Made by a program: the position numbers and the translations under genes
Assembly: GCF_019175385.1 (NCBI RefSeq)
Contig: NC_083344.1
Coordinates: forward strand, 61,442,782-61,506,781
Reading direction: 5' to 3'
Length of the DNA stretch: 64,000 bases
Origin: Lycium barbarum
Lineage: Eukaryota; Streptophyta; Magnoliopsida; Solanales; Solanaceae
The notes under the pieces: model-generated
The model's database searches: none
Told to the model about the DNA's origin: nothing
What the model saw: only the letters and a program-made list of their open reading frames with translations
In this document: piece by piece, positions 747 to 59,366 of the stretch
How the letters are laid out: each line of letters begins with the position of its first letter
Position numbering within the stretch: position 1 is the first letter of the stretch

Positions 747-784
747 TTGTTTATGGGTGTGTTGCGCGCCACACATATAAACAG
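747..784 (+). promoter_or_regulatory. E1 leader hairpin with palindromic loop (dimerisation-signal-like)
   Basis: Outer stem GTTTAT (749-754) with ATAAAC (777-782), inner stem GTGTG (757-761) with CACAC (770-774), and an 8-nt loop TTGCGCGC containing the self-complementary hexamer GCGCGC (764-769). It is about 50 nt downstream of the PBS. The same structure recurs in all other leaders of this window. Function is inferred. Confidence 0.6.
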
Positions 785-898
785 GAGGCTACAGGGCATT
801 TAGGAAATGTGACCTTCTTTGCATTCTGAAATCGTGCGATAGAGCTAAGTTGCCAGGCTTCCATATTCCTTTCCTAATCCTATGTTATGGTTTCTGTA

Positions 899-1366
899 AT
901 GTCGATTAAGAGATCAGCCTCAGATAGTGGGGGCACCAGTAAGGCCCCTAGAGTATCTCCAGAGCCGAGTAAGGGGAGCATCGGCTATTCGATTGAGTCA
1001 GATCCATCAGAGGACCCAGCCACAATTCCTCCAGAGTTCCTGACTCCCAGAGCAGAGGATCCTGCGGAGGATAGCTATGATACAGACCCGTCAGAGCACT
1101 CTTCTGGGACGACGGAGGAGGAGGCTTCCGGGGATATGCCAGTTGCTCCTGTGATGGAGCACCATGCCAGTCCGGCCACCTCGGAGAGTGCTACGGATTA
1201 CTCCTGTCCCTTGTCCTAGCCATCAGTGAACCAGGAATCGCCTGGTTATCTATACTCTTCCGATTCGGATGCGAGGAATGACGAGGGTCAAACGAGCGGC
1301 GAACAGACAGACGAGAATGTAGAGCATACTTCACATGGTAGCTCCCCGGACCAGGCTCGAGATTGA
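899..1366 (+). pseudogene. Acidic Ser/Pro/Glu-rich reading frame in place of gag, one stop codon
   Basis: The frame begins at ATG 899, at the position where gag starts in the coding elements (just after a TTTCTG that resembles the TTTCAG before other gag starts); an upstream in-frame ATG is at 887. It reads about 155 codons to TGA 1364-1366, interrupted by a TAG at 1217-1219. The product would begin MSIKRSASDSGG and is rich in Asp, Glu, Ser, Thr and Pro with repeated D/E-P-S and SSDSD-like clusters. I see no gag core, zinc knuckle, protease or transmembrane segment and recognise no family. It may be a degenerate gag N-terminus, a distinct protein, or non-coding sequence that stayed open by chance. 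Confidence 0.45.
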
Positions 1367-1717
1367 TCGGCTACAGGTATATGAGATTTTCTTCGAAACT
1401 TTCTATGCATACGCGATCTCTGTAAAATTACTAATTAATGACGGTAGACAGAAATTCAAAAGGGGCCAAAGACTTAGCGGTTATGAGTAATGGTGACTGA
1501 AATGTTTCCGCCACCAGTGCGAAATTAGAAACCCCGGATAAAAGGGTAGTTATATATATGGATGGGAGTAAAGAGTGAAGATTTAAATAGAGGAAATATG
1601 GAAATCGTATGGTTAGGAAAGTGAAGATAGGAGCGGGACCCGTCGTGAGGACGTTTTGGGAGTTGCTAGAACCCCGACTTACCTTAAATGATGTGACAAA
1701 GGTCGTGCGGGGCAGTC
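1367..1717 (+). other. E1 internal non-coding stretch
   Basis: No reading frame or known domain. From about 1630 the sequence GGGACCC...CGAGGA...GACAAAGGTCGTGCGG parallels E6 at about 61075-61150, so this part belongs to a module shared by non-autonomous elements, directly 5' of the 5S-like segment. Confidence 0.5.
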
Positions 1718-1817
1718 GATATGATTATACTGGCATTCACGTATTAAAATGAACTAAAGTTTCAAGGTTAAGCGTGCTAGGGTGAGAGCAATATCACGAT
1801 GGGTGACCCCCTGGGAA
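1718..1817 (+). other. 5S rRNA-like segment inside E1
   Basis: About 100 nt align with plant 5S rRNA without large gaps. The strongest blocks are GGTTAAGCGTGCT (about 1767-1779) and GATGGGTGACC with CTGGGAA (about 1798-1817), which correspond to the 5S box A and box C internal promoter regions. The 5' third is more diverged (GATATGATTATACTGGCA). Same orientation as the element. Two further copies lie in E3 and E6. Confidence 0.75.
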
Positions 1818-2244
1818 ATATGCTGAAAATTTCATAAATGTGGAAACAAGTGACGAGTGTAAAAGTAGGCAGCCCAAAGTAAATTGGCGTGTGGAAAGTG
1901 GTTAGAAACCCCGTACGAGTCATATAGGTCGAGACGGGCTAAACTAACGGAAAAGGGGAAGCCATGACAACAGAAAGATTTGAGGATGAAGGAAAAGGGT
2001 ACAGATGTCACAGGGTGAGACCGATATTGAGTCCACACTAATTAAGGCAAGAAATCCCCGGTGTGGCGATGTATGGGAACATGTCTAGTGAGGGGATAGA
2101 CGCGACGGACGCCACGAAGAAGGGATTACATCCATAAAGATCGCAAAAGGCAACCTAAGCTCCTAAGATGGATATGCTAAGTGACATGAGGTATCTACAG
2201 AGGAGACCTCCCCGAAGTGTTACAATACACTATGAGGCTAGTTT
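1818..2244 (+). other. E1 3' internal non-coding region
   Basis: Nothing coding is seen. The last 60 bases (ACCTCCCCGAAGTGTTACAA...) are recognisable in E3 (minus, 35898-35960) and E6 (61840-61880), so it is a shared 3' untranslated segment. Confidence 0.5.
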
Positions 2245-2280
2245 AACATTCGAGGACGAATGTTCTAAAGGGGGGGAGGA
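2245..2280 (+). promoter_or_regulatory. E1 inverted-repeat motif and polypurine tract
   Basis: AACATTCGAGGACGAATGTT (2245-2264) is an 8-bp perfect inverted repeat around AGGA. It is followed by the polypurine tract TAAAGGGGGGGAGGA, ending at 2280 directly before the 3' LTR. The PPT primes plus-strand DNA synthesis; the hairpin motif is retained at every PPT in this window. Confidence 0.85.
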
Positions 2281-2756
2281 TGTTACACCCCGCGTTTTCA
2301 GAGCAGGAGTATGACATTTACCTCACCGTAGTAAGGGAGTGTCAGAGACGTCCCATAATGTTTTGAAAAGCCCAAGCCATGGAAAGTACGTAACAACGAA
2401 GAAAGAGGGTGAATTACGATCTCGTAAGTCGTAATCGGGAAAGAGTATTTTGAAACATGAGAACATGATCATTATTAGTATAATAAGTGATAAATATCAT
2501 GTATGGAGAGTTTCAGAATATTTCGAGATCGAGCAAATTGAAGAAAATAAGTTCGATGAAAATTTGAGAAATGCTGGAAAGATTTTTAGTCAAATTTGGA
2601 GGGGTATATCTCCATGTATATTTGGAGTTTTAAGGCGTTTCAAAATCCTAAAATGAAGTTCGTCGAGTCTAGTTTGTAATGCAACAAACCGCTCATCGAT
2701 AGGGCGTCGGAGTAGAGAATTATAGACGTTACAAACTGAACTGTCGCGCAGAAACA

Positions 2757-2840
2757 GAGCTGCTACAGCAATGCTACAGTACCGCTACAGTACTGCAGCA
2801 GTACTGTAGCTACAGTACGTCGGCCCCACCCTCTATAAAA
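2757..2840 (+). promoter_or_regulatory. E1 LTR core promoter with CTACAGTA repeat cluster
   Basis: CTCTATAAAAGGG places a TATA box at 2834-2840, predicting transcription from about 2865. Directly upstream, 2759-2818 holds four or more copies of GCTACAGTA/TACTGTAGC in both orientations. By inference this is a U3 promoter with a palindromic protein-binding array. Confidence 0.65.
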
Positions 2841-4807
2841 GGGCTAAAAACCCCCATTTTCATCACAAAAAATGCTACAAAGTTCCAGAAAATTCAGCCA
2901 TTAAAAGGCTCTTAATCTCACATAAAAGTGAAGATTTTGGGCGAAATTTCAAGCTACGAAGTACTAATCGAAGTCCGGGCAACGCATAGTCACAAATATG
3001 ATTTCATTTTGGAGTTGGAGTGGCTTGGAAACAAGTAAATGTTGAAGATTTGGCTACCTTCATGAAAAACAAGGTATGAATTTCTTGAATCTCTTTCTCT
3101 ATCAATATGAATTAAGAAATAATGGCAAGAACAAGGTGATAGTTTGTTGTATTGATGTTGTTAATTTGTGGGTTGAGATTTGAAGAGAAATTGGACGAAA
3201 TATACATATATCTATCTTGTAGGATGTTGGGGATGTTATTATTGATGTTGTTAGTACTAATTTCAACTTCTTTACGGAAATAAAGTTATTAAATAGTTGT
3301 ATCACAAGTGGGTTGGTTGAGAAATTTGGAAAATAGTGTGTGGGTTGTTTTATGGCATATGTTGGTGTTGGAAATGATATTACGACTATTGGTATTGTTG
3401 AAGAATAATGAGCAAGTTATATTTAGTGTTTTAGTTGTTGTGTTGTAGATTGCATATAGCAAGTAAAGACTTGATAAGTGTGGTAAAGTATTGGTAATTG
3501 GAAGATTATGTATATTGAAGAATAATGTTCTTGCATGGATAGTATGTAATGATATTGGTATGATGCCGTTGGAATATATACTATAAGGTTGTTATCGTGT
3601 TCATTGGAGTCGGAAGGTTTTGAAGAAGGTAATAAATTGAAATCATGCATCTTGGATGAAATATGTGAATTGCTAGTGCGATTGTTGATTATGTTAATAG
3701 TTTGGCCGGGTTTGAATTCCCGGATTGTGTTGGTTGAGAATTTGGCTATGTTGAATGTTGAGGATGGTATATTTACAGAGGAAATGCTGCCGAAATTTCG
3801 GTAGCCAAGTGTTTCCTTAAGATTTCAACTCTAAGTATACTAATGAGAGTTTTGGTAAAAACGACCAATTTGCAGATTTTGACGAAATTGTGACGTGAAT
3901 TTGGAATAGCAAAAGGAGCGGAAAGAGGTATGTAAGGCTTCACCCTTCTTTCTTTGGCATGTCTTAGTTGAAATAAGTTGGGTACGAGCCTCGGGGACAA
4001 CTCGGTTCCCCGGAATCCGCACCTAAAGTTTTCCACTTTTTGTTCAATAGAATTGAACTAGAAAGTGTGCCAATTGTTGGAAAAACCTCCTACACCCTTA
4101 GAACTTGTATAAATGGGACCCGATTACCCTAAGACCCTCACAAGTAACGCTATGACACGTAACATACGTAAATCATATACGCTACCTCATCCGGCCCGAG
4201 GTGGGCCCGCTACTCTCGGATTTTTCCTTACAGTCTTGCTTGACTTACTTGAAGTGAATCCAAAGGGGACCTTTGATCCCGATTTCAATACCAAATGATA
4301 AATACTATGACTCCTCTAACGAGGGCACTTCCATGACGATAATGATAACAATGATGTTAGATAAGAGAATATGCCTATGATAGGTACTACCGGAACGACT
4401 CTATGACTAAGATGACTAAGCTAAGTATCTTATGTAAACATGAAAATGATAAACTAATTTTTGAATCTTATTTATATTTCCTAGCTATGACTTTATTTTC
4501 TAAAACATTTCAAAGTCTATGAACCGTCATCTATGATGCCCCGATTTCATTCTACGTTTACTTTAATATTATTCCCCGTTGGTAGTCTCACCTTAAAATA
4601 CTCGTTCCTTCAAGGTGAGACAAAGCGATCACGAGTATTCTATAATATAATTGGAGGTCACCGACCTTACGTCACTCCGATGACTACATGATTCTTCTTT
4701 GGGCTTTCCTGCGTGCCTATGAGATATATGTTTATAGGATACGTAAATGCATATAAGACATGTAAATGTATGTAGGATATGCGTATATATTTTTAAAATA
4801 TGCACAT

Positions 4808-4929
4808 GACGAAAGAGCTAGAGCGCTATAGACGCTGATGTACCTACATGACACACGTATATGTATATGATAAAAGAGCTAGAGCGCTATAGACGCTGAT
4901 ATATGTACATGATATATGCATGTGTATAC
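4808..4929 (+). repeat. Two-unit tandem repeat (61 bp) in the E1 LTR
   Basis: The block starting AAAGAGCTAGAGCGCTAT and continuing AGACGCTGAT occurs at about 4811 and again at about 4872. The same pair is seen in the minus-strand LTR near 54600-54700. Confidence 0.7.
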
Positions 4930-9279: not shown

Positions 9280-9289
9280 CGACTACCAC

Positions 9290-12396: not shown

Positions 12397-12500
12397 TCTG
12401 AAAGCACAACACACTTTTAGGAAAACTGAAATCTTATGTATGGCTCTATCGCACGATCTAATAAGAAGAAAGATGGTCATTTTCCTAAATGCCCTGTAGC

Positions 12501-12540
12501 CTCTTGTTTATTAGCGTGGCGCGCAACACACCATAAACAA
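12501..12540 (-). promoter_or_regulatory. E2 leader hairpin with palindromic loop
   Basis: GTTTAT (12506-12511) pairs with ATAAAC (12533-12538). The inner stem around 12514-12531 has one mismatch, and the loop contains GCGCGC (12519-12524). Confidence 0.55.
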
Positions 12541-12583
12541 GACTCTACTAGACACGGCTCGTAGGCACTTGTTAGGACGAACT

Positions 12584-12595
12584 GCTCTGATACCA
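12584..12595 (-). promoter_or_regulatory. E2 primer-binding site (initiator tRNA-Met type)
   Basis: Minus strand TGGTATCAGAGC, a perfect match to the standard initiator tRNA-Met PBS, 4 nt from the 5' LTR end. Confidence 0.95.
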
Positions 12596-26884: not shown

Positions 26885-26997
26885 CTTTCCGCTGAAATCA
26901 AGGGTTAGTATAAGGAATTTCATTTCCTATGACTTGGCGCTCAACGCACGATCTAAGATGAGAAAATAAGGTCAATCATTCCTAAATGCCTCGCAGC

Positions 26998-27041
26998 CTC
27001 CTGTTTATAAGTGTGGCCGGTTTCACACCCATAAATAGGAC
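26998..27041 (-). promoter_or_regulatory. E7 leader hairpin
   Basis: CCTGTTTAT (27000-27008) faces ATAAATAGG (27031-27039, one mismatch); GTGTG (27011-27015) pairs with CACAC (27024-27028). The loop hexamer is GCCGGT, one base away from the palindrome GCCGGC seen in E3. Confidence 0.5.
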
Positions 27042-27081
27042 TCTGCTAGACACGACTTGCAGATAACCCTAAGACAGAACT

Positions 27082-27093
27082 GCTCTGATACCA
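27082..27093 (-). promoter_or_regulatory. E7 primer-binding site (initiator tRNA-Met type)
   Basis: Minus strand TGGTATCAGAGC, perfect match, 3 nt from the LTR end. Confidence 0.93.
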
Positions 27094-35897: not shown

Positions 35898-36821
35898 CAA
35901 CTGGCCTCATGGGGTGTTATAATACTTTGGGAGGGTCCCTCTTATAATTTTCCTTTTCTTCATGCTCATTCCTTATCTTCACCCTATTCTTAAGTTACCG
36001 TTTTGGAAAGCTCCTCCATGTCCGAGGCATCCGTGTTAATCTTACCCTACGCTTATCTCTTTATATACCTCTCACAGGCTGGGAGCCTCTTAACATCGTC
36101 GCAAAGCCTAAACATTCTTTCCCTTACCTCACATCCCTTGTCATAGTCACTATTCCTTTAGCCCCACTTATTGAAATTGGTTCTCGAACCTCACACATTC
36201 TCTTTTGTTCCATATTACCGCACTTTATCCTCTCCGCGTACCTACCTTTGAATCTTTTACCCATATAGTCTCATGCTTTGTCGGTAGTTTCTCTTGAGGG
36301 CTTCACTCACTGAGGTTTCTTACCTTGCACCTTTTTTCGACATTTTGATTTCCCTGCCTTCCATTTACTCACTCTCTTTCTTTTTCAAATACCGTTGTAT
36401 TAGACTTTCCAGTCTTAACCTATAGTGAAAATAACATCAGCTCACCTTGTAACACTTGTACCATTTATTTTTGCTGTCACTTGAACTTCGGTACCTTTGC
36501 TCGATTGATGCTTTCCATACCGTAACACCGGTCGCCAGGGACACACATGCTCACCGATATAATCGCATGTGGGATATCATTCGCATTCATATATATGTAT
36601 CTATAATTACTACCGTCTCGCCTACAAAATTCCTCCAAATGCTATTCGAACTCATCCTAGCTCCAGAGCTATGATGCACTCTCTGTCTCTTCACCAGTCT
36701 AGTCTGCCTCGTCCTACGCGACCTCTTATGGTCTCCAACCATCCCGTATACTCTAGTTTCCCTTAGGATACTCTAGCTTCCCATTTGTCTCTTATGTCTA
36801 AATCTATAGGATTTCTTGCAC
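35898..36821 (-). other. E3 internal region 3' of the 5S-like segment
   Basis: Non-coding, purine-rich on the element strand. Near 35898-35960 it matches the E1 and E6 3' internal ends. No open frame of note. Confidence 0.45.
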
Positions 36822-36923
36822 ACTTCCCAGGGGTCACCCATCCTAATATTTCTCTCACCTTAGCACGCTTAACCTCGAAACTTCGATGAAATTCAGTGCA
36901 TTAATGCCGATATAATCGCATCC
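36822..36923 (-). other. 5S rRNA-like segment inside E3 (best-preserved copy)
   Basis: Read on the minus strand from 36923 it starts GGATGCGATTATATCGGCA, then GGTTAAGCGTGCTAAGGTGA and GGATGGGTGACCCCTGGGAA, ending near 36822. The 5' end (GGATGCGAT), box A and box C of plant 5S rRNA are all preserved, over a length close to the first 105 nt of the 120-nt molecule. Same orientation as the element, as in E1 and E6. Confidence 0.82.
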
Positions 36924-37700: not shown

Positions 37701-37745
37701 ATCTAAGACAGAAAGAAGGTCAACAATTCCTAGATGCCCTGCAGC

Positions 37746-37789
37746 CTCCTGTTTATAAATTTGGCCGGCTTCACACCCATAAACAGGAC
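37746..37789 (-). promoter_or_regulatory. E3 leader hairpin with palindromic loop
   Basis: CCTGTTTAT (37748-37756) and ATAAACAGG (37779-37787) form a perfect 9-bp stem. The apical loop has the palindrome GCCGGC (37764-37769). Confidence 0.6.
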
Positions 37790-37830
37790 TCTACTGGACA
37801 CGACTTGGCAGACAACCCCTAGGACGACCT

Positions 37831-37842
37831 GCTCTGATACCA
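37831..37842 (-). promoter_or_regulatory. E3 primer-binding site (initiator tRNA-Met type)
   Basis: Minus strand TGGTATCAGAGC, perfect, 3 nt from the LTR end. Confidence 0.94.
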
Positions 37843-37845: not shown

Positions 37846-39961
37846 TGTCACACCCTAATCATGATAGGGCATGACGGGCACCCGACTCTCATCAGAGTCG
37901 AGCGAACCCTTAAACATTTGATCTATCCAAAACCTGTCATTTCAAAAACTTTTAAAAACATGAAACTTTTTCACATAGAGATCATTATCTTTATAATGAT
38001 TATGAAAACTTTCAACCAATTAGGTACTTTAAGCCAATTGAAATCGTGTAACATACATACTCTTTTAATATCTACAAATGATTCGCACTTCTCGACGCCC
38101 TATCCACAGGACACTGTCTGCAAAGTCTCTAACATATACAAAATACCATGACATAAGTACTTTGACCCGGCAACACTCCGAACTGAGATGGAGCTCGCCA
38201 ATCCAGCTGGTAGCATAGGAACATCCTATAGCCGATGTCTTCCACTCATCTGTATACACCTGCGTGGCATGAAACACAGCCCCCGAAGAAAGGGGGTCAG
38301 TACGGAATATGTACTAAATATGTAAGGCATTACTGAATCATAAACAAGGAAAGACGTAACAATAAACCAGTTTAAAAGAAACCTGGGAGTAACATGGAAC
38401 AACATTTTAATCCGTGCCATGTAGTACCTTGCACAAATTCTAACACACACAATGTGAATATAGTATCACAATAGTCCCTTCGGACAACCGCTTCTGGCAT
38501 AGTAACAATGATAGCCCCTTCGGGCATGTCGCTTCGGGCATAATAATATTGATGGCCCCTTCGGGCATGCCGCTTCCGGCGTAATAATATTGATGTTGGC
38601 CCCTTCGGGCATGCCGCTTCCAGCATAATAATAATGTTGGCCCCTTCGGGCATGCCGCTTCTAGCATAATAACAATGATGGCGTCAACACAACTTAATCC
38701 ACAAATATCAATACAAAGAAATAATGCTATGGAGTATAAACATAAATCGTAAATGAAACGAAATAGTAAAATCTCGCACTCCTTTAGGAGTGGTTTTGTA
38801 AATTAACTTTATGTTTCCTTTAGTACAAAACTAATTTTCTCGAAATCATTAGTAAACCATAAACACGTTTCAAGTCAATCCGAGTTAGTATAAGAAAGTT
38901 ATGGACATTATTCATTATAGAAACCTCCATGAACGTTTCCAAAACAATCCAAGTTAGCACATGAAAGTTAGGAACGTTATTCATTATAGAAACCCCAACG
39001 AACATTTCCAAGACAATCCGAGACCATCTACGAAAGTTAGGGACATTACTACTTACAGAACTCTTTAAAGGAAAACAAGAACTCTTTATGCTTTGCTTGT
39101 TATTCAATCGTACAATAAGCTCACCTATACTAGGTATACTCATAACAAGAAGTGAATAAGAATCATTAACAAGCTCGGAATCAAGAATAGAGTTACTCCA
39201 AGATACGTATCATAACTTACTTAGCTCTAGGACATGCCAAAAGAAAGAAAGGGTAAGTTTTACATACCTGTTCCACGTCCTATTAGCTACGCTTATTTGT
39301 CCAAGCTCGCTAGTCTACATTCAAGAGAATTGACACAATCATTAGACTCATCGTCATATACTTGTCTTAGTCCTTCAAATGAATTCATTTATAGTCTACC
39401 GAAATTTCGGCAGCATTTCCCCTGTAAATACAACCATCCCCGAGAATCTAACTCGGCCAAAGTATCAATCAACAATCCCAAGAATCATGCCAACAACATC
39501 AACAATAGATTCAAGACGCATTCTAACGTTAGTAACTTTCTTCTACATAATTCAACAACATCCCATTTACGTTCAAATCCACCATATATAGCCAAGCTAG
39601 CACCAATGATCTCACATTCAAGTGTTAATCCAAAATCCTTCTTACATGATTCAAGAACACTTCAAACAATTCACACAATATTCGAAACAACCCAACCAAC
39701 ATACCAATTCACCCGAAACCTTCCAAATTCAACAAGAACGATAACAACACATTTCTTTCTTTCAAATTCATGAACTACACCAACAATCTACACCTTAACA
39801 ATATTATTTTCCATAAATAAAAGAAGTGGTATTAATGTCGCATTAGCTTCTAAAACAACTCTCCAACCATTACAACTTCAACTAGAATTATTAAACTTTC
39901 ATTTTCATCATAGAATCCATAACAACAACAACCAAAATACTAGATAAAATTAGTTCATCAT
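37846..39961 (-). repeat. E3 5' LTR, first part, cut by E4
   Basis: Matches 33009-35160 closely. It ends ...TTAGTTCATCAT at 39961 where E4 starts; the 3' LTR continues with TCCTACAC. ATCAT (39957-39961) is the predicted E4 target duplication, but its partner is outside the window. Confidence 0.9.
38465..38690 (-). repeat. 41-bp minisatellite in E3 5' LTR
   Basis: Same unit as 33641-33886 but with about five units, some altered (CTTCGGGCATAAT, GCTTCTAGC), so unit number or sequence changed after insertion. Confidence 0.85.
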
Positions 39962-42900
39962 TGTCACGACCCAACCCCGTAGGCCATGACTAGTGCCCGG
40001 TCTGGGCACCCGAACCCATCTATCAAATATTATCTCAAATTCTATCAAACGCATTCTAGAATATAGCAGAAGCCGACAAGGCTTTATTTGAATTTTAGAT
40101 AATTTCCAGAAAAATTTCGGCAGAGTCTCCTTTGTTTTACGGACTATCCCATATACCCTGCACGCAGAAAATACCAACAAAGGCCACACGGGGCCAACAA
40201 AGCAACATTTAAATATATGCGGACCGGCCGCCGCGGCGAATGGGATCGCCAAAACACAACATATACACACATCTGTACAGAAAGACCCCAACCCACAAAC
40301 ATGTCCACAGACCTCTAAACAGACCGACAGAATCATATGACGGGATAGGGCCCCGCCGTACCCATGAACGAGAATATACATATACAGTGATGACAGACTG
40401 TACCAAAAGATGGACTCTGAAGAAAAGAGCGCTCCAAAATAGCAGAATAAGATCCTAAGCGGGCGGATCTGCAAACCTGTCGTCGGTACCTGCGCGGCAT
40501 GAAAACGCAGCCCCCGAAGAAAGGGGGTCAGTACGAAATATGTACTGAATATGTAAAGCCTGAATTACAGAAACAAACTCATAACTGGTACAGAACGTGC
40601 AGAAAGTAAACAGAAAATCCAAAGTATCAGATATATATATTTTCAAAACATGCAGAGTGGGTACAGAAACATATGTCATATCAAATCCAGCCCCTGCCAA
40701 GGGACTCGGCAGACAGAACGTGGCCACCCTCCCGACGCTGGTGCCACAACACAGAAGAATCAGAAAAGGGGCATAACCCCGTGTCATAATATGTCATATC
40801 AAATGGCCATAGCAAATCATATCAGAACAAGCGGACATGGGACATCATACTCCACAAACCCATGTACGCGAATACCTGCCCCCTCACATCGAGGCACGAC
40901 GAACAATGCAGAGGATCACGCTTGACAACATATCCTGGCCCGGGCTCAGTGTGGGAAACATTGGGGCATCCACGAGTGGAGTAGTGAGAGACTAATGCAA
41001 TTAAAATATCATAAATGTTTCCATAGACTCGATGAGGCATATCAAAAACAAACCGATCCAATGAAGTCGGAAGGGATCATAATAAACGAGTTTCGGATAT
41101 CATAATGAATTACAGAGTATAACCTTTCCGAAGTCGTTTCGAGTGTCAAAACAATTTATCAGACTTAATGGAATATTTAAAACAATGTTTGTTAGGTAGT
41201 TAGAATGGTAGTCAAAACATTTCTTTCAAAAACCGCTCGAAAGCAAGACTTGAGTACAATAAGGGCAAAACCGGGAATAGTGGGCCCACCTCGGGACAAG
41301 CAAGACGGTGGGCTCAAATTACATATTTTAAGCTTAAGGGGGTCACCTATAGAGGTTCTACGGACATTCTATAGCTTTCCAAGGAGTTTAGAGAAAGTTT
41401 GCATAATTTCCAAGAATACAAACCAAAAGGGCTCAATCTTACTGAAGGAAAAAGCGAGATTTTCAATTGCGGATTCCGATAGGCAGAAAGTCTTTCGAGG
41501 CCCGAATCCGATTCTAATACACTTAGGCATGCCAAAAGAAGGATTGGGGTAGCTTTACATACCTTTCTAACTCCTTACGCCTCTCCAAACTCACTTTCCG
41601 TTTTGTCAAAAATCTGCAAATGGTCAAGTTTACCAATTGTGAGTTATAGATTCTACGAATTCAACTTAACTCATATATGTCTACCGAAATTTCGGCAGCA
41701 CCTCCCCTATACATATAGCACCCCCGAGAATTCAACTCGGCCAAAAAAATCATCAACAACCCAACAACAACACCCACAACAACAACAATCAATATAATAC
41801 ACAATATGACATAACTAGTTCTACTTGCCGACATAATGCCTTAGCCTTTATTTCATCTTCAATTTCCAAACAAATCTCAATGGTTTCACATTCGTCATTA
41901 ATCTAGATCATCACAATATAGTTTAGAAGCATTTCATATCGCTTCCTTAAATTATACACACGATATACATAATATACAAACTTTCCGCCAAAGTCATATT
42001 TCATCCAAAGCTTCTAATCTTTGGCATACATATTCATGACATGTTTTCATCTTCCAAATTCATCAATAATCATCATGACTTGCAACCTAACAACTTCATT
42101 TTCGCAATGTCGTAAGATCGTACTAAAACGACATAAGCTTCTACATTCCATTTCAATACAAACTTATGTCATTTTATCTTCATTTACATTGCAAGCATCA
42201 CAATAACGCAACTAACACATTAAACAAAATTAATTCATTAGCATCCTACCAACACAATACCACACGGCCAAACCCCTATATTTCAACTTCAACCAAATTT
42301 ATTCAACTCTCATTCTCCATATGAATTCCATCATACACACAACTAGAATACAACATAAATTTCAACTCATTTCACTTACACATTAACACACACACACGGC
42401 CACATTCTATATTCCATACCCACTTTGCAAACTTCCATTTTTCCATACAATCAACTCATTTCTACATACTACAACACAAACAAGACTTCATAACATAAGG
42501 ATAGGGAATAAATTCTCACCTTTTCCTCTAGTCTTCTTCACTTGGAGGTATGGTCACTTTGATGAATTTGATGCTTCTCTCTCTAAACCAACTACACCAA
42601 GTTACAAAGGGTGCTCAACTTAGTAAGGAAATCACAAGAGAAAATTTTTTGGAGGAATATTTTTGGTGGTGATTTTTGCAAGCCAAACCCGAGCCCTTCT
42701 TCTTCTTGCTCTCTCTTGTTTTGTTTTTGTTTGTTCTATGCTTCTTGAACAATCTAAGGGATAAGATGATATATATATAAAATGGTCCCCTTATTAATTT
42801 AACACATGGGAAAATTAATAAAATCATGGGCTTGGCCACTATGTTGGCCGGCCACCCGTTAGCATTGGGCCTTAATTTTTCATTGAATTATTTTGGCCCA

Positions 42901-43211: not shown

Positions 43212-43830
43212 TTATCGAATATAATTAGGTAAAGGTTTGAGATTACCTGTGGGAATAGGGAACAAATGAGGATATTTCTTCTTCATCTCCTCTTCGGTCT
43301 CCCAGGTCATTTCCTCCCTATTATCATTCCGCCACAGCACCTTGACAGAGGCTACATCTTTGCTCCGGAGCTTTCTTACCTGGCGGTCCAAGATAGCTAC
43401 GGGCTGCTCCTCATAAGATAACCGCTCCGTCACCTGAATATCATCCGCAGGAAATATTCTGGAGGGGTCACCAATGCATTTGCGGAGCATAGATACATGG
43501 AATACCGGATGTACCGCTTCCAAATCAGATGGAAGATCTAATTCATAGGCGACATTTCCGATTTTTCTAACAATCTGATAAGACCCAATATAACGCGGAC
43601 TGCTTACCCTTTCTGCCGAACCGCATTACGCCTTTCATAGGCGATACCTTTAGAAATACCCAATCACCAACCTGGAATTCCAAAGGACGACGCCGTTTAT
43701 CGGCGTATGATTTATGTCGACTCTGGGCTGCCAATAGTCGCTCCCGGATAAGTTTCACCTTACCAACGGCCTGCTGGATCATGTCTGGGCCGATTAACTC
43801 TGTCTCGCCAATATCAAACCAGCCAATAGG
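43212..43830 (-). pseudogene. E4 integrase C-terminus and chromodomain
   Basis: From 43830 the frame reads GWFDIGETELIGPDMIQQAV, YADKRRRPLEF and FLKVSPMKGVMRFGRKGK, the integrase C-terminal region. A frameshift near 43605 (expected SPRYIGPY) moves to the frame 43523-43212 with HPVFHVSMLRKC, then VASVKVLWRN, EEMTWETEEEM and KKYPHLF, the chromodomain-like tail with its Trp intact. Joined across E5 to the core at 48343. In chromoviruses this tail directs insertion site choice. Confidence 0.9.
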
Positions 43831-46277: not shown

Positions 46278-46289
46278 TGGTATCAGAGC
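46278..46289 (+). promoter_or_regulatory. E5 primer-binding site (initiator tRNA-Met type)
   Basis: TGGTATCAGAGC, perfect, 4 nt after the LTR end. Confidence 0.95.
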
Positions 46290-46333
46290 AGTTCAGTCCT
46301 AGGAAGTGTCTACGAGCCGTGTCCAGTAGAGTC

Positions 46334-46370
46334 TTATTTATGGTGTGTAGCGCGCCGCATCAATAAACAG
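46334..46370 (+). promoter_or_regulatory. E5 leader hairpin with palindromic loop
   Basis: TTTAT (46337-46341) with ATAAA (46363-46367); GGTGTG (46342-46347) with CGCATC (46356-46361), using two G-U pairs. The loop TAGCGCGC holds GCGCGC (46350-46355). Confidence 0.58.
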
Positions 46371-46477
46371 GAGGCTACAGGGCATTTAGGAAAATGACCA
46401 TCTTTCTTTTCAGAGATCGTGCGATAGAGCCGTGTGTAGGATTTTATTCTCTTCTAAAAGTGCGTTATGATTTCAGA

Positions 46478-48291
46478 ATGCCGCCAAAGGGGAAAGCTAC
46501 AGCTGCCCAGAAGGGCAAAGCTACGACATAGAAACGAGCAGAAAGAGAGCCTCCGGCGAATGTGGAAGAGGGTGAATCCCAAAATGAGGCATTGCCTAAT
46601 GTAGAAGGGCAAGGAGGAGCCTCGGCTCCGGTTCCTCCACCAGTTGCTTCGGGTCAACAAGTGACCGAGGCCATACACTTATTGACTCAGTTGGTTGCCG
46701 CCCAGGCACAACGACAAAGTGCGGGCACGAGTGATCGTTCAGCTAGTACAAAAGCCCGTGATTTCATGACTCTAAATCCCCCGGAGTTCTTTGGGTCTAA
46801 GCCGGATGAAGACCCGCAAAACTTTATTGATGATATGATGAGAACCCTAAAGATTATTCATGCTTCCGAGACAGAATCCGTAGAGTTGGCTTCTTATAGA
46901 CTCCACGATGTGGCGGTGCTATGGTATAACAACTGGATGGCATCAAGGGGAGAAAATGCACCCCCTCCGGTTTGGCAAGAATTTGCGGATGCTTTTGTTC
47001 GTCATTACTTGCCACCCGAGACTCGCCGACCTAGAGCGGACAGGTTCCTGAATTTGAAACAAGGGAACATGAGTGCCCGAGAGTATAGTATGCAATTCAA
47101 TTCTCTGGCCAGGTATGCTCCGAGTATAGTAGCCGATATGGGCGATCGTGTGCACAGATTCGTGAGTGGTTTGGGGCTACATTTGTTCAGAGAATTCTTG
47201 ACGGCCTCTTTGCAAGATGGGATGGATATTTCCCGAATACAGGCCCATGCACAGAATCTTGAGGAACGACGACAATTACAGAGAGGTGATTATGACAGTG
47301 ACAGGAGACAAGGAAAAAGGGCTAGATCGATGGGAGCAAGTAGCGAATATAGAGGGGGGTCGAGGCAGATACATTCTAGGCACTCAGGTCAGTCAGCGAC
47401 CAGTGCCCCTTCTAGGTTCCCAGATAGGAGGGTTGATCGTTCTTTTCAGCCAGGACAGGGCTAGAGTTCGAGAGCCTCAGATTCCCAGTTCCGGGGAGAT
47501 TTCAGTCAGCGGAGACCTCCAGTACCGCGGTGCAGTCAGTACGGTAAATTGCATTCCGGGCAGTGTCGTCAGGGTTCAGATGCATGTTACGCCTGCGGGC
47601 AGGTTGGTCACCTTATGAGAGATTGTCCTTCCGCGAGAGGCAGAGCGGGGACTCAGCCCACAGGTTCAGCAGTGGGTTCTTCTTCAGCACGCCCGACAGC
47701 ACAGACTTCTCATACTACAGCAGGTAGAGGCAGAGGTAAAGGGGGAGTATCCACTTCAGGTGCTGTTCAGCCCCGCGTATATGCTTTAGCCGGGCGACAG
47801 GATCTTGAGTCCTCCCCAAATGTTGTCACAGGTACATTGACTATATTTTCCCGTGACGTGTATGCCTTGATTGATCCAGGCTCTACTTTCTCTTATATTA
47901 CTCCGTATGTTGCTGGTTGCATTGGGGCGAGGCCTGAGTCAATTAAGCCCTTTGAGGTACTTACTCCGGTTGGTGAACCCGTGATAGCAAAACAAGTATA
48001 CAAAAATTGTGTCGTTGTTATGTGTGACCGCCAGACTAGAGCCGATTTGACTGAGTTAGAAATGGTCGATTTCGATGTAATTATGGGTATGGACTGGTTG
48101 GCGTCATCCTATGCTAATGTTGATTGCCGGACGAAAGTGGTCCGATTCTAATTTCTGGGAGAACCCGTACTTGAATGGAAAGGTAACACTGCATCCCCAA
48201 AGGGTAGGTTTATTTCCTACCTTAAGGTGAGGAAGATGATAGCAAAGGGTTACATTTCTCATCTAGTTCGAGTTCATGATATCGAGGCAGA
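46478..48291 (+). pseudogene. E5 gag-protease, three stop codons
   Basis: ATG 46478 (MPPKGKATAAQKGKAT) follows TTTCAG by 1 nt. One continuous frame carries the gag core ([45 protein letters not shown]), the knuckle CYACGQVGHLMRDC and the protease (LIDPGSTFSYIT, IMGMDWL). Stops are TAG 46529-46531, TAG 47462-47464 (CAG in E2) and TAA 48149-48151 (CAA expected). The first putative knuckle has Tyr for the second Cys (CSQYGKLH). The frame runs into the deletion at about 48292. Non-functional. Confidence 0.9.
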
Positions 48292-52606: not shown

Positions 52607-52710
52607 AACTGCAAATGTAACAATTCGTTAGGGAGGAATCATCCTGATAACATAGTTCTATCGCACGATCTAAGACAGAAAGAAGGGTAGTATCCTAAAT
52701 GCCTTGTAGC

Positions 52711-52752
52711 CTCCTGTTTATAGGTGTGGTGCACAACACACCGATAAACAAG
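52711..52752 (-). promoter_or_regulatory. E4 leader hairpin with palindromic loop (best example)
   Basis: GTTTAT (52716-52721) with ATAAAC (52744-52749); GGTGTG (52723-52728) with CACACC (52737-52742), six perfect pairs. The 8-nt loop holds the palindrome GTGCAC (52729-52734). Confidence 0.65.
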
Positions 52753-52793
52753 ACTCTACTAGCCACGGTCTGTAGACATTCCGAGGATGAACC

Positions 52794-52805
52794 GCTCTGA
52801 TACCA
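52794..52805 (-). promoter_or_regulatory. E4 primer-binding site (initiator tRNA-Met type)
   Basis: Minus strand TGGTATCAGAGC, perfect, 4 nt from the LTR end. Confidence 0.95.
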
Positions 52806-52809
52806 CTTT

Positions 52810-53761
52810 TGTCACGACCCAACCCCGTAGGCCGTGACTAGTGCCCGGTCTGGGCACCCGAACCCATCTATCAAATATTATCTCAAATTCTATCAAACGC
52901 ATTCTAGAATATAGCAGAAGCCGACAAGGCTTTATTTGAATTTTAGATAATTTCCAGAAAATTTTTGGCAGAGTCTCCTTTGTTTTACGGACTATCCCAT
53001 ATACCCTGCACGCATAAAATACCAACAAAGGCCACATGGGGCCAACAAAGCAACATTTAAATATATGCGGACCGTCCGCCGCGGCGAATGGGATCGCCCA
53101 AACACAACATATACACAAATCTGTACAGAAAGACCCCAACCCACAAACATGTCCACAGACCTCTAAACAGACCAACAGAATCATATGACGGGACAGGGCC
53201 CCGCCGTACCCATGAACGAGAATATACATATACAGTGATGACAGACTGTACCAAAAGATGGGCTCTGAAGAAAAGAGCGCTCCAAAATAGCAGAATAAGA
53301 TCCTAAGCGGGCGGATCTGCAAACCTGTCGTCGGTACCTGCGCGGCATGAAAACGCAGCCCCCGAAGAAAGGGGGTCAGTACGAAATATGTACTGAATAT
53401 GTAAAGCCTGAATTACAGAAACAAACTCATAACTGGTACAGAACGTGCAGAAAGTAAACAGAAAATCCAAAGTATCAGATATATATATTTTCAAAACATG
53501 CAGAGTGGGTACAGAAACATATGTCATATCAAATCCGGCCCCTGCCAAGGGACTCGGCAGACAGAACGTGGCCACCCTCCCGACGCTGGTGCCACAACAC
53601 AGAAGAATCAGAAAAGGGGCATAACCCCGTATCATAATATGTCATATCAAATGGCCATAGCAAATCATATCAGAACAAGTGGACATGGCACATCATACTC
53701 CACAAACCCATGTACGCGAATACCTGCCCCCTCATATCGAGGCACGGCGAACAATGCAGAG
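52810..53761 (-). repeat. E4 5' LTR, 3' end portion (952 bp)
   Basis: Matches 39962-40913, diverging abruptly after AACAATGCAGAG where a minus-strand LTR of the E1 type begins. It includes a triple hairpin (53338-53395). The same LTR sequence resumes at 62072 but starts about 73 bp earlier in the LTR, so that stretch is present twice. Confidence 0.9.
53338..53395 (-). promoter_or_regulatory. Conserved triple hairpin, E4 5' LTR
   Basis: CTGCG (53338-53342) with CGCAG (53354-53358), CCCCC (53359-53363) with GGGGG (53371-53375), CAGTAC (53377-53382) with GTACTG (53390-53395). Confidence 0.62.
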
Positions 53762-56700
53762 TCTCACGACCCGTCTAGGGGCCGTGACGAGTACCCGATA
53801 CTTGTACCGAGCACCCCTTGTCTATCATTTTACCTTTACCTCTTAGCAAGCCATGTAAACAGAGCCATTTATTTTTTGAACATTAACATTAGCGGCGTCA
53901 TTCTGAACATAGACTAATAAACTTCGTTATCACTTATACATCAACATTAACATGCCAAAACACCATATATCTAACTGTACTTAACTGACTGTACATAACT
54001 ATCTACGAGCCTCTAGACGTAGTACACTTATACATAGAAAGGGCTGAGTACTGCCATGCCCGAATATATATACACAAAATAGTACCAAGGAAGTTAGGCT
54101 CCGGAATAACTGGAGCACTGTCAACACTGCTGGTAGAGCTTCTAAGGATCAAATCCGCCTGTCTGCTGACCTGCGCGGCATGAAACGCAGCGTCCACAAG
54201 AAGGGACGTCAGTACGAATAGTGTACCGAGTATGTAAGGCATGAATAGTAATATACAGAAAATATGAATCATGTATAATGACATAAGAGAGTTACAACAC
54301 ATGTCCTGGGATAGAAACATAACCTGTATATATATATACCCTTGGCAGGTGCTATGCGTACTTAGCTTTCCTTTAAGAATCTTTCCTTGTTCATATACAT
54401 ATACATATAAAATAGGACATCTCATATTGCCGAGGCGTCGGCAGCCGATCCATTTAACCATAAATATACACATCCCGCGTCCGGGCATCCCGCGTCCGGG
54501 ACGATATCATATCATGTAATGCCAACTGATCAGGTGGATATGCGTTCATAACGCTCTGCCCTTACCTCCATTTTCCCTGTATACACATGCATATATCATG
54601 TACATATATCAGCGTCTATAGCGCTCTAGCTCTTTTATCATATACATATACGTGTGTCGTGTAGGTACATCAGCGTCTATAGCGCTCTTGCTCTTTCTTC
54701 ATGTGCATGTTTTAAAAAAATATATACACATATCTTACATACATTTACATGTCTTATATGCATTTACGTATCCTATATACATATGTCTCACAGGCACGCA
54801 GGAAAGCCCAAAGAAGAATCATGTAGTCATCGGAGTGACGTAAGGTCGGTGACCTCCAATTATATTATAGAATACTCGTGATCGCTTTGTCTCACCTTGA
54901 AGGAACGAGTATTTTAAGGTGAGACTACCAACGGGGAATAATATTAAAGTAAACGTAGAACGAAATCGGGGCATCATAGATGACAGTTCATAGACTTTGA
55001 AATCTTTTAGAAAATAAAGTCATAGCTAGGAAATATAAATAAGATTCAAAAATTAGTTTATCATTTTCATGTTTACATAAGATACTTAGCTTAGTCATAG
55101 AGTCGTTCCGGTAGTACGTATCATAGGCATATTCTCTTATCTAACATCATTGTTATCATTATCGTCATGGAAGTGCCCTCGTTAGAGGAGTCATAGTATT
55201 TATCATTTGGTATCGAAATCGGGATCAAAGGTTTCCTTTGGATTCACTTCAAGTAAGTCAAGCAAGACTGTAAGGAAAAATCCGAGAGTAGCGGGCCCAC
55301 CTCGGGCCGGATGGGGTGACGTATATGATTTACATATATTACGTGTCATGTCATTACTTGTGAGGGTCCTAGGGTAATCGGGTCCCACTTATGCAAGTTC
55401 TAAGGGTTTAAGAGGTCTTTCCATCATTTGCACACTTTCTAGTTCAATTCTATTGAACAAAAAGTGGAAAACTTTAGGTGCGGATTCCGGGGGCTAGGGT
55501 TGTCCCCGAGGCTCGTACCCGACTTATTACATCTAAGACATGCCATATAAAGAAGAGTGAAGCCTTACATACCTCTTTCCGCTCCTTTTGCTATTCCAAA
55601 TTCACGTCGCAATCTCGTCAAAATCTGCAAATTGGTCATGTTTACCAAAACTCTTATTAGGGTACTTAGAGTTGAATTCTTAAGGAAACATTTGGCTACC
55701 GAAATTTCGGCAGCACTTCCCCTATAAATACTCCATCCCACCAAGTTCAACTTGGCTAATTTCAATCAACAACAATCTCGGGAATTCAAACCCGGCCAAA
55801 ATATCAACCACAATTCCAACAACAACAATACTAACAACTTCCATATTCAATCAACTTACTACTTCTTCCAAAAACTTTCTAACTTTAATGAAAACAATAA
55901 CAACCTCATAATCTATATTCCAACAACATCATACTAAATAAAATTAACTCATTTTCTTCCATTTTTTCACCATAACCACACGGCCAACACCAACATACAC
56001 ACTACAACTTCTCAAAATTCATTCAACTTCCATTTTCCACATATCATTCACAACAATAACAACCAAACACTAATTAAAATAATTGAAGCATGACTCCTAC
56101 ACATATATACATACACACGGCCATGTACTATATTTCTCTCCTTCATGAATTTCATCCATTTTAGCATACTACAACACATATAAACCATATATAACACATA
56201 AAACAAGATCAAAACTCACCTTTCTTCTTCAACTTCTCACTTGACTACAACTTGACAATTTGTATGATTTTGAATTTTTCTTGATCCAACAACAACTCCA
56301 CCTTGTTAATCACCCTTTACTTGGTAGAAAATGATTTTTGAAGAATTTTTATCAATTTTTCCTTGGAAATTTGATCTTGGCCGAAATGGCCTTCAACTTT
56401 TCTCCTTCTCTTTCTTGTTCTTCAACTTCTTGAATATTCTAGAGGTTGTGTGATAAAGATGACTTAATCATCTTATTTATTGACCAAATTTTATGTAATA
56501 TGGGCTTGGGCCATAACCATGGCCGGTTGGGCCTCAAAAATTTGGGCCATATTATTTTTTTTGATTTTTTTGGGCCAACACGGTTTGGTCCCGAGTTGGG
56601 CCTAGCCCACTGACCTTTCGACCTTAAAACGTTCATATCTCCTTGTACCGACGTCACCTGGGGACCCACGACATATGGTTGGAAAGCTAATTCAATTATC

Positions 56701-56837
56701 TACAACTTCTAGTTCTTGGTACTTTTCCAAATTCCAAACTTATAATACCAGTTTTGCCCCTTGAAGTCAGATCACCCGAAAACGTTTTCTTAAAATATCC
56801 GTTTGGAGGACTTCCACTTTGATTTGGCCCAAGGGTC
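53762..56837 (-). repeat. E1-type LTR, minus strand, 5' end removed
   Basis: Its 3' 2 kb match the E1 LTR (same 161-codon frame at 54488-54003, 61-bp repeats, TCTCACCTT/AAGGTGAGA at 54890-54924). The terminal bases read TCTCACGACC where TGTCACGACC is expected. The 5' part (about 56570-56830) instead resembles the E6 LTR, so it is a mosaic or a related subfamily. E6 begins at 56838 and the first 130 bp or so of this LTR are missing. No internal region is attached. Confidence 0.8.
54171..54228 (-). promoter_or_regulatory. Conserved triple hairpin, 53762-56837 LTR
   Basis: CTGCG (54171-54175) with CGCAG (54186-54190), CGTCC (54191-54195) with GGACG (54204-54208), CAGTAC (54210-54215) with GTACCG (54223-54228, one G-U type pair). 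Confidence 0.6.
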
Positions 56838-57240
56838 TGTTATATTCTGCATTTTCGAACATCAAATTAATTGTAAGGTGGGGTGGGGCCCACACGCCAA
56901 GATTTTTTTTTGGGACATGTGAAAAGTTATATGAATCGTATATGTAAATTTAAACACAACTCGTGAAGGGCCCTGAGGCCAAATCAAAGTGGAAGCCCTC
57001 CAAACGAACATTTTTAAGAAAATGTTTTCGGATGACCTGACTTGGAGGGGCAGAAACGGCATTATAAGTCTGGAATTTGGGAAAATACCCAGATATAAAA
57101 GTTGTAGATAATTGAAATAGCTTTCCAACGGTAGGTCGTGGGCTCCCAGGCGACGTCGGTACAAGGAGATATGGATGTTTTAAGGTCGAAAGGTCAGTGG
57201 GCTAGGCCCAACTCGTGACCAACCGGGTTGGCCCAAAAAA
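56570..57240. repeat. Head-to-head LTR starts forming an inverted repeat
   Basis: Arms of about 260 bp (56570-56830 and 56972-57240) are inverted copies with moderate divergence, sharing GGCCAAATCAAAGTGGAAG, CTTTCCAAC and GACGTCGGTACAAGGAGATA in opposite orientation. The spacer of about 140 bp is the extreme 5' end of the E6 LTR. It arises from two related LTRs meeting in opposite orientation. Confidence 0.75.
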
Positions 57241-57337
57241 AAAAATCTTACAAATTAGAGGCCCAATTGGGGTGGCCGGCCAACTAAAGGCCCAAGCCCA
57301 TAAATTGGTCATGTGATTTATCATGTGATCAAGAATT

Positions 57338-57350
57338 ATAATAAAAGGGG
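57338..57350 (+). promoter_or_regulatory. E6 LTR TATA-like promoter element
   Basis: TATAATAAAAGGGG about 500 bp into the LTR; transcription would begin near 57375. This is about the same relative position as the E1 and E5 TATA boxes. Confidence 0.5.
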
Positions 57351-58514
57351 CCAAGTGTTCATTTTCTAGAAAATTCATGAAACAAGAAGAAAACTTGAGA
57401 GCTCAAGCCTAAGAGGCCTCTCGGCCAAACCAAGAACAAAAAAAAAAATTTAGCCTTCAATCCAAAAATCTTGTTCTTCTTGAATTAGTAACAAGTTCAA
57501 GACGCTCTTCAACGTGGTATAACTAGTTTGGCGGAAGAACCACGTTTGCGGAAAGTTGGAATTTGAAGGAAAGGTATGAATTCTATGTTTCATGTTATGG
57601 AATAAGTATATATGTTATAATGATTAGAATTAGATGAGAATTATGGAAGTATGGTGTGTGTGTGCATAGTTTGTGTGTGTGTAAATGGTGTGTTTGGCCG
57701 TGAGCTATGTGGGTGTGGGGGAGAAATGAATTCAAGTTTATTTGGTTTGTTAGTTGTGTCGTTGTGACCTTTGTGTCGCAAATAAAGGCTTCATGACTTG
57801 AATTGGTGTTGGGATTTCTTGTATGTAATTATGAGAAATTATGTGAATTTTATATGATTTTTTATATAAGTGTGGAAGTAAGATCCTAAATGTGAATTAC
57901 GATTGTTGGTAACGAATTTGGAAAGAAACAATGTGATTTGGAAGTTTCGTTGCAATTGGTAGGAACTTTGGGTAGAATATGGAATTGGGGGGAATACTTG
58001 AATTCATGAATATTGTTTGGAAGGCTATTGGAATGCATTTGAACAATCTTGAATTAGTTAGTGGATATGGAAAATGTGGATACTAGTTTGACAATGTGAA
58101 GTTTGAATGAAAGTTATTAAACTATGCGGAAAGAAGATTATTTATGTAGAAAGGGCCAGGTTCTGTTATCGTGCATATTCCTCTGCATTGTTCACCGCGT
58201 CCCTCGGTGTGCGGGCCGGGATCTGTTATATCTGTATGATTATGATATATTGATCTGTGTATGGGGATGGCGGCCAGGATGGCATCTGATATGATCTGAT
58301 CTGATCGGATTCTGTCTGTCCACCGCGTCCCGTACTAAGAGGGCCGGGTTCTGTTTACCGCGCCCCCAGACAGGGCCGGGATCTGTAAGTCTGTATGCAT
58401 GTGCCATCAGTGTTTATATAAACACGTGCCTCCATATGATTCTGTATGATTTAGTATGACTCTGCATGCATAATTCTGTCTGGTATACTTCTGTCTGTCC
58501 GCCTGAATTTCGAC

Positions 58515-58730
58515 TATGTCTGTATGTCTGTATGGATTCTGGTTCTGTACATCTGTATGGGTTCCGATTCTGTACGTCTGTATGAATACTGATTCTGCTC
58601 ATCTGTCCGGATTATGATTCCGTCTGTCTGTCTGAACCATGATTCTGTTTATCCGTATGGACCACGATTCTGTATGTCGGTCTGCATCATGACTCTGTCC
58701 GTCTGTCTGATGTATGGTTCTGTCCGTTAT
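58515..58730 (+). repeat. About 25-bp CTGT-rich tandem repeats in E6 LTR
   Basis: Around eight imperfect units of the type GATTCTGTACGTCTGTATGG. Similar CTGT/GTCTG words build the 41-bp array in the E6 internal region. Confidence 0.7.
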
Positions 58731-58789
58731 ATTTCTGTGACTCCGGTTCGGACTATGATTGTATCTGTTATGTTTCTGCTTTACATACT

Positions 58790-58845
58790 CGGTACATTTT
58801 TCGTACTGACCCCCGTTCTTCGGGGGCTGCGCTACATGCCCGCAG
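58790..58845 (+). promoter_or_regulatory. Conserved triple hairpin, E6 LTR
   Basis: CGGTAC (58790-58795) with GTACTG (58803-58808), CCCCCG (58810-58815) with CGGGGG (58821-58826), CTGCG (58827-58831) with CGCAG (58841-58845). Confidence 0.62.
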
Positions 58846-59274
58846 GTACAGACGCACCAGGTGATACGCCGCCAACGTAGGGTTCTGATTCAGCTGTTTT
58901 GAAGAGCTCCTTTGATCCGGAGCATACACTTTTGGTATATATCTTCTGTTTTCCGTATGTTCTGCATGTATGGAAATTCTGGGTACGACGGGGCCCTGTC
59001 CCATCATATGATTCTGTATGTCTGTAGAGGCCTGTAGATAGATGTGTGGGTTACGGGTTTCGTCTGTATGTTAGCCTTATCGGCTTATCTGTAAAAGTCT
59101 GCATGTTCAGGTATATATATATATGCTTGCGCGCGTGCCGTATCTGTATCGGCCTACTTCTGTAATATCCGTTTGAAAAAAAATCTGTACGATGCGAAAT
59201 TCGGTCAGGTAGGTATGTACGGGTACCCAGCTAGGGTGCCAGTCGCGGCCCACGGGGTTGGGTCGTGACAAAAG

Positions 59275-59286
59275 TGGTATCAGAGC
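59275..59286 (+). promoter_or_regulatory. E6 primer-binding site (initiator tRNA-Met type)
   Basis: TGGTATCAGAGC, perfect, 4 nt after the LTR end. Confidence 0.95.
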
Positions 59287-59328
59287 GGTTAGTCCTCGGA
59301 ATGTCTACAGGTCGTGTCTAGTAGAGTC

Positions 59329-59366
59329 TTGTTTATCGATGTGTTGTGCACCACCTCTATAAACAG
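59329..59366 (+). promoter_or_regulatory. E6 leader hairpin with palindromic loop
   Basis: GTTTAT (59331-59336) with ATAAAC (59359-59364), inner GTG (59341-59343) with CAC (59352-59354) plus flanking pairs. Loop TTGTGCAC holds GTGCAC (59346-59351). Confidence 0.58.

Follow-up and report, generated by a model that had tools for sequence, protein, structure and literature searches.

A hairpin whose loop is typically its own complement follows the primer-binding site (PBS) in the RNA leaders of seven retroelements, apparently chromodomain Ty3/Gypsy elements, within a 64,000-nt stretch of Lycium barbarum DNA (NC_083344.1; hereafter the window). The described systems closest to it are human immunodeficiency virus type 1 (HIV-1), the Ty3/Gypsy element Ty3, and the Copia-type elements Ty1 and BARE. 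Dimerisation through kissing loops or palindromes has already been described in retroviruses (PMC5874298), Ty1 (PMC5454406) and Ty3 (PMC11381356). The loop of the HIV-1 dimer-initiation site (DIS) mainly carries GCGCGC, GUGCAC or GUGCGC, and the central two G-C pairs matter; an internal loop of stem-loop 1 (SL1) is a Gag site and aids conversion of the kissing complex into a duplex (PMC5874298; PMC516451). In the DS/PAL6 region of Ty3, a short hairpin bears at its tip a CUGCAG palindrome that is required for 5' RNA dimerisation in vitro, and a kissing-loop dimer has been proposed (PMC11381356). Ty1 carries PAL1 and PAL2 in the SL1a hairpin and PAL3 in another (PMC5454406; PMC4974528), and the plant Copia element BARE2 is mentioned as having "conserved dimerization and packaging signals" (PMC3735527).

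The L. barbarum structure is best explained, with a probability of about 0.82, as a dimer-initiation (kissing-loop) hairpin of chromodomain Ty3/Gypsy leaders. Like HIV-1 SL1/DIS, it stands between the PBS and gag, presents a GC-rich six-nucleotide palindrome in its loop, and has an internal loop in its stem. GCGCGC and GUGCAC, shared with HIV-1, are the two commonest plant loops, and G or C occupies the central two positions in all three common ones. In contrast, the stem sequence is not recognisably related to that of SL1, and the plant loop has eight nucleotides, with two before the hexamer and none after it, compared with nine in the HIV-1 DIS loop. The plant elements also differ in having a third palindrome, GCCGGC, and their hairpin is known from sequence. 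The identification of GCGCGC and GUGCAC with the HIV-1 dimerisation loops, made in the original prediction from the window's letters, agrees with the published accounts (PMC5874298; PMC516451). Ty3 shares with the plant elements its superfamily and a palindrome at a hairpin tip, but PAL6 lies at nt 391-396, apparently in the gag frame, in another hairpin and not beside the PBS (PMC11381356). The 5' RNA hairpins of Ty1 are likewise proposed to pair between RNAs before packaging; unlike the plant loop, however, they pair two different loops, SL1a with SL3a, over 7 nt (PMC5454406; PMC4974528). BARE, from barley, is also a plant LTR (long terminal repeat) retrotransposon said to carry dimerisation and packaging signals, although it belongs to the Copia superfamily and its signal is compared here by mention, not by sequence or form (PMC3735527).

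Seven PBS sites (TGGTATCAGAGC) occur in the window, one of them (E1) with a single mismatch, and the hairpin follows each. On the plus strand, it occupies 732..799 in E1 (loop hexamer GCGCGC, 764-769; PBS, 690-701), 46319..46385 in E5 (GCGCGC, 46350-46355; PBS, 46278-46289) and 59314..59381 in E6 (GTGCAC, 59346-59351; PBS, 59275-59286). The minus-strand copies are those of E2 at 12489..12555 (GCGCGC, 12519-12524; PBS, 12584-12595), E7 at 26986..27053 (ACCGGC, a broken palindrome, 27016-27021; PBS, 27082-27093), E3 at 37734..37801 (GCCGGC, 37764-37769; PBS, 37831-37842) and E4 at 52699..52766 (GTGCAC, 52729-52734; PBS, 52794-52805). Read in the sense direction, the 8-nt loops are TTGCGCGC in E1 and E2, TAGCGCGC in E5, TTGTGCAC in E4 and E6, AAGCCGGC in E3 and AAACCGGC in E7, the last with its one-base break. 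All seven hairpin sequences of the original prediction are present at the positions given there, four of them on the minus strand, and the hexamers that it read, including the E7 break, are those of the sense loops.

The full hairpin is about 68 nt long, and when about 70 nt of sense RNA is folded, the minimum-energy structure contains the 8-nt loop in all seven leaders, whereas the short plus-strand fragments originally listed for E3, E5 and E7 fold with other loops. Predicted energies range from -24.9 to -34.1 kcal/mol (z -3.55 to -6.73), and shuffled sequences folded as well in 0 of 200 trials in six leaders and in 1 of 200 in E6. The consensus fold of the seven leaders is the same hairpin as that of the single-sequence folds of about 70 nt. 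From the outer end to the tip, it consists of GTGTCY/GRGCAY, GTAG/CTAC, a conserved AG/GG internal loop, TCTTGTTTAT/ATAAACAGGA, GGTGTG/CACACC and the 8-nt loop, whose final six bases form the hexamer; the stem has four tiers and approximately 25-27 base pairs. The hairpin first reported is therefore real, but it is only the tip of this longer structure. Its outer stem, GTTTAT/ATAAAC, was said to be conserved and is so in five of the seven leaders, while E5 and E7 have ATTTAT, giving an A-C mismatch. Compensation in the inner stem proved modest within the window, where the E3 and E6 stems are imperfect; among the seven leaders, two-sided change affects three of 36 consensus pairs. The idea that every PBS has such a hairpin applies to all seven window elements; in the adjacent 200 kb, another family accounts for three further PBS-like sites (at most one mismatch), and its leader lacks the hairpin flanks.

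In the adjacent 200 kb, a fuzzy motif built on the flanks alone turned up a further 15 PBS-bearing leaders (three matches without a PBS, one of them inside the window, were left out), and searching for the PBS contributed a decayed one, L143. Palindromic loop hexamers occur in 15 of these 16 neighbours, the exception being L145 with GCCCGC. The distance from PBS start to hairpin start is 39-42 nt in all 50 leaders that passed filtering. For the whole genome (1.67 Gb), a pattern made only of the flanks AGTAGAGTC and AGGAGGCTRC, separated by 32-48 unspecified bases, gave 6,470 + 6,543 = 13,013 matches, compared with 0 for the same pattern read backwards. The loop statistics rest on the first 100 listed of these 13,013 matches, all from one contig (C1), with the hexamer taken as six bases whose distance from the 3' flank was fixed. 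In this sample, picked blind to the loop, 81 of the 100 hexamers (53 of 71 distinct rows) are palindromic, against 1/64 expected by chance, as the original prediction had anticipated. GTGCAC accounts for 41, GCGCGC for 29 and GCCGGC for 11. Any other offset is palindromic in at most 38 of the 100, and the offset reaching that value is the near-fixed TTATAA of the stem. For hexamers with G..C outside and GC inside, the table of positions 2 and 5 reads 29, 1, 0 and 41, with one row outside the table; the Fisher value for it ignores relatedness.

The pairing of stem and loop was evaluated on 43 distinct hairpins out of 53, the ten omitted ones repeating the core of an included one. Loop pairs 1/6, 2/5 and 3/4 are paired in 95.3% of cases, compared with a shuffled mean of 81.0, and their covariation score is 0.456 against a shuffled mean of 0.182; none of 500 shuffles was as high by either measure. 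Pair 2/5 is C-G in 21 hairpins, T-A in 21 and unpaired in 1, and pair 3/4 is G-C in 35, C-G in 4, T-G in 1 and otherwise in 3. Standard pairs fill 95.3% of stem cells; sliding the partner by 1-3 columns lowers this to 38-57%. Because the columns are conserved, column shuffles are nearly as well paired (94.5%), yet 0/500 are as high, and the stem covariation score (0.158) exceeds the shuffled mean (0.137) in the same way, with 0/500 shuffles as high. Two-sided changes occur in 6 of 27 stem pairs, compared with 2.3 after shuffling (3/500 reach 6) and up to 4 in slid controls. The compensatory changes of stem and loop proposed earlier are thus found in the larger set, by shuffles and slid partners rather than R-scape itself and among copies of one genome; neither of the two outcomes that the original prediction named as refuting it was observed. 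One-sided departures from Watson-Crick pairing comprise 63 G-U, 13 A-C and 16 others, and a second set of 54 distinct genome-wide flank-pattern rows gave 81 G-U, 19 A-C and 6 others. This large excess of G-U over A-C places the pairing structure on the sense RNA.

Because a palindromic hexamer is its own complement, a partner in cis would be a second copy of the hexamer. None of the 44 leaders with palindromic loops repeats its own hexamer within 700 nt downstream (one leader was covered for 487 nt), and one of the 44 does so within 400 nt upstream. In minimum-energy folds of about 235 nt of leader, the 8-nt loop is open in 44 of 50; L146 has a 7-nt loop with the hexamer open, and L166 and L177 form extra pairs within the loop. 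With the structure on the sense RNA and no partner nearby in cis, pairing between two RNAs remains, and the same loop on a second RNA would be the likeliest remaining partner.

The history of the loop was traced on trees of 50 leaders built from sequence outside the hairpin, with up to 700 nt on the gag side; L143, L156 and L160 failed the filter. In the gag-side tree, each of the six changes that yield a non-palindrome occurs on a tip, while four internal changes and one tip change lead from palindrome to palindrome by two substitutions each. The minimum number of switches among the three palindromes is three on the LTR-side tree and five on the gag-side tree. A single origin of GTGCAC is rejected by both trees (p-AU 1e-8 and 6e-87; quick trees), as is that of GCGCGC, while a single origin of GCCGGC is not rejected. 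Evolution of the hexamer without a pairing constraint was simulated on both trees, with transitions weighted threefold, CpG transitions a further eightfold, and six rates of 600 runs each. At least 42 palindromic tips together with at least three palindromes occurred in 0 of 7,200 runs, compared with the 44 and three observed.

The leaders accordingly hold a conserved hairpin of sense polarity, with compensated changes and a loop that has stayed self-complementary in the lineages that multiplied. We infer loop-loop pairing, and with it dimerisation and packaging. Two copies of the genomic RNA would pair loop to loop as a kissing complex, probably with assistance from the zinc knuckle of Gag; melting that starts at the conserved AG/GG internal loop may then turn this complex into a longer duplex. 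The contact would lead to packaging of two RNAs and to template switching, and the broken loops of single copies would reflect decay after insertion. These comparisons support the original interpretation of the hairpin, whose role would be dimerisation and packaging.

Several observations weigh against this interpretation. All sequences come from one genome, with no relative from a second species; the trees and counts use related, possibly recombinant copies, and the first 100 rows derive from a single contig. Of those rows, 19 are not palindromic, although these are scattered and no hexamer among them occurs more than twice. Two of the five loop shuffle measures are ordinary (pairs with two-sided change, 151/500; further pair types, 266/500). 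Two slid loop controls are high, 87.2% at -2 (two pairs only) and 75.2% at +3, with lower covariation (0.236 and 0.112); the remaining slid controls are 5.8-36.4% paired. LTR-side parsimony places the non-palindromes GCCCGC and GCGCAC at two deep nodes, as equal-cost ties, and thus that tree alone does not show unbroken palindromy. In 3 of 50 leader folds (L150, on the plus strand, L174 and L178), the palindrome is predicted to be taken up by a competing hairpin that pairs GGTGTG with CGCGCC. Finally, GTGCAC and GCATGC each lie two CpG transitions from GCGCGC, so part of the variety could begin by decay, and GCATGC makes up 48 of 83 sense rows among the matches listed in a search for loops with a W-W centre. 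That search set numbers 219; from the 100 listed, 17 antisense rows were set aside, leaving 72 with an AT or TA centre and 11 with AA or TT. GCATGC was rejected as a lineage state, being explained by CpG decay, as was GCTAGC, whose count of 4 is no higher than that of GCTTGC (4). Only GCGCGC, GTGCAC and GCCGGC are claimed as lineage palindromes.

Among other explanations, the one that fares best is that the hairpin serves another purpose, such as a Gag-binding packaging site or the control of translation or export, and that the hexamer is a protein site that is palindromic by accident. Stem and flanks are indeed conserved, and structured RNA elements of retroelements, whether leader or cis, perform such tasks (PMC5874298; PMC12786077). 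A protein site would keep its letters, however, yet three hexamers share one place, and pair 2/5 is divided equally between C-G and T-A (21 each of 43); we regard this explanation as improbable.

A further proposal is that the loops derive from GCGCGC by methylation-driven transitions in dead copies, with palindromy as a by-product. Decay products do exist, including the single change GTGCGC (373) and the non-palindromic double GTGTGC (56), and the CpG distances given above fit this origin. CpG decay nevertheless predicts more single than double changes, whereas the first 100 listed contain GTGCAC 41 times, GCGCAC once and GTGCGC not at all. Moreover, GCCGGC requires two transversions, non-palindromes occupy only tips of the gag-side tree, and the simulations with a raised CpG rate matched the observations in 0 of 7,200 runs. 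This makes decay a very improbable source of the palindromy.

Pairing of the loop within its own RNA, either in the competing hairpin, where GGTGTG would pair with CGCGCC or TGCACC, or with a distant partner, could also fix its letters, and the three leader folds noted above favour it. The GCCGGC loop, read from its sequence, is unable to form that hairpin, which in any case needs no joint change at positions 2 and 5, and a second hexamer is missing over the distances searched in all 44 leaders downstream and all except one upstream; the chance that this is the explanation is slighter still. The remaining alternative, a DNA-level palindrome, cruciform or DNA-binding site, has in its favour that in DNA, too, the entire stem forms an inverted repeat, but it is barely credible, as the sense strand shows G-T far above A-C (63:13; 81:19), the same cells being A-C mismatches on the other strand, and DNA would not favour one strand.

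Returning to the dimer-initiation hairpin, its three palindromes invite a bolder and rather doubtful extension, in which the loop acts as a recognition code between families coexisting in one genome and an RNA would pair best with another carrying its own loop type. A two-step switch would partly isolate a new family from the one it arose from in packaging and recombination, and plant elements and HIV-1 would have reached the same few GC-rich palindromes independently because few kissing solutions are available. Predicted energies of the 6-nt self-duplexes are -10.9 for GCGCGC, -7.9 for GTGCAC and -11.7 for GCCGGC; those of cross-type duplexes are -6.6 for GCGCGC/GTGCAC, while GCCGGC reaches -2.8 and -2.2 with these hexamers. 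The LTR-side and gag-side trees conflict for several copies, including L146, L151, L165 and L184, which points to possible recombination between families near the hairpin. This discordance suggests that any barrier set by such a code would be leaky.

The reading frames of the window encode gag, a CCHC zinc knuckle, a retroviral protease, reverse transcriptase, RNase H and integrase, whose zinc-binding part scores over its cut-off and whose core scores just under. An integrase C-terminal SH3-like domain (PF24626) together with a chromodomain (PF00385), both over their Pfam cut-offs, lies at 43215..43625 on the minus strand, between the LTR copies assigned to E4 by self-comparison (39961-40920 and 52809-53768). 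The chromodomain scores, 26.5 bits in this piece and 25.8 in another copy, L144, are just over the 25.1-bit cut-off and are known for these two copies. The element domain set, together with this one piece carrying an integrase C-terminal chromodomain, identifies the window elements, on predicted domains, as chromodomain Ty3/Gypsy elements. They may belong to the Tekay (Del) lineage, a name that comes from the original prediction and that the integrase and chromodomain sequence appears to fit. The gag frame of E5 (46562..47464, plus strand; Pfam Retrotrans_gag) lies 3' of its leader, and that of E6 (59463..60947, plus strand; Retrotrans_gag and zf-CCHC) includes the zinc knuckle, the part of E6 Gag predicted to bind the leader. 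In a BLAST self-comparison of the window (E 1e-20; pieces 150 nt or longer), approximately 170-200 nt around the PBS and hairpin are the only part of E1 resembling all six other elements.

Other features of the leaders deserve mention. TCTAC immediately 5' of the long hairpin could pair with the GTAG arm, which the hairpin itself pairs with the downstream CTAC. An upstream TCTGC accompanies a downstream CTGC in four of four cases, as a two-state switch would give, but TCTAC goes with CTGC in three leaders, and the upstream motif was not found in 10 of 50. A second near-palindrome, ATCGTGCGAT (ATCG..CGAT), some 35 nt downstream of the long hairpin, is intact in six of the seven window leaders and changed by one base in E7. 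TTTCAG or TTTGCAG directly precedes the gag start in six of seven leaders (TTTCTG in E1), and GGTAAGT shortly follows it in E3 and E7; these motifs may be splice sites of the leader or of gag. An Rfam scan of the window at gathering cut-offs returned no family other than 5S rRNA, and whether Rfam holds an SL1 model was left unchecked; between the plant hairpin and HIV-1 SL1, the known coincidence in sequence is confined to the loop hexamers. The 5S_rRNA match (36806-36920, minus strand; 42.6 bits, cut-off 38) lies approximately 810 nt downstream of the E3 hairpin and is a candidate 5S-derived insert or pseudogene within or adjoining E3.

Beyond this genome, neither the 52 loci from a PBS and stem scan of viral contigs nor the five of 135 loci that passed a coarse filter (52 from that scan and 83 from a flank scan) contain a PBS-hairpin leader. 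A reverse-transcriptase and integrase query matched 12 stretches, none of them a relative, and the 400 bases around the single bacterial match of a prokaryote-genome scan hold no such leader. In searches of the open PMC literature, subscription papers being outside their scope, no dimer-initiation hairpin of plant chromoviruses is described in the titles and abstract beginnings among the matches listed, and a term search of a 2025 review of the plant LTR retrotransposon life cycle returned no word starting with "dimer" (PMC12786077). The principle of dimer initiation is thus known, while its instance in plant chromoviruses appears new as far as the open literature searched extends. Plant LTR retrotransposons make up a large share of many plant genomes, and little is known of how their RNAs pair and are packaged. 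The hairpin described here offers an exact six-nucleotide site that can be tested, and its 13,013 flank-matched copies form a natural mutation series. Its loops further suggest that unrelated elements may have converged on the loop letters of HIV-1.

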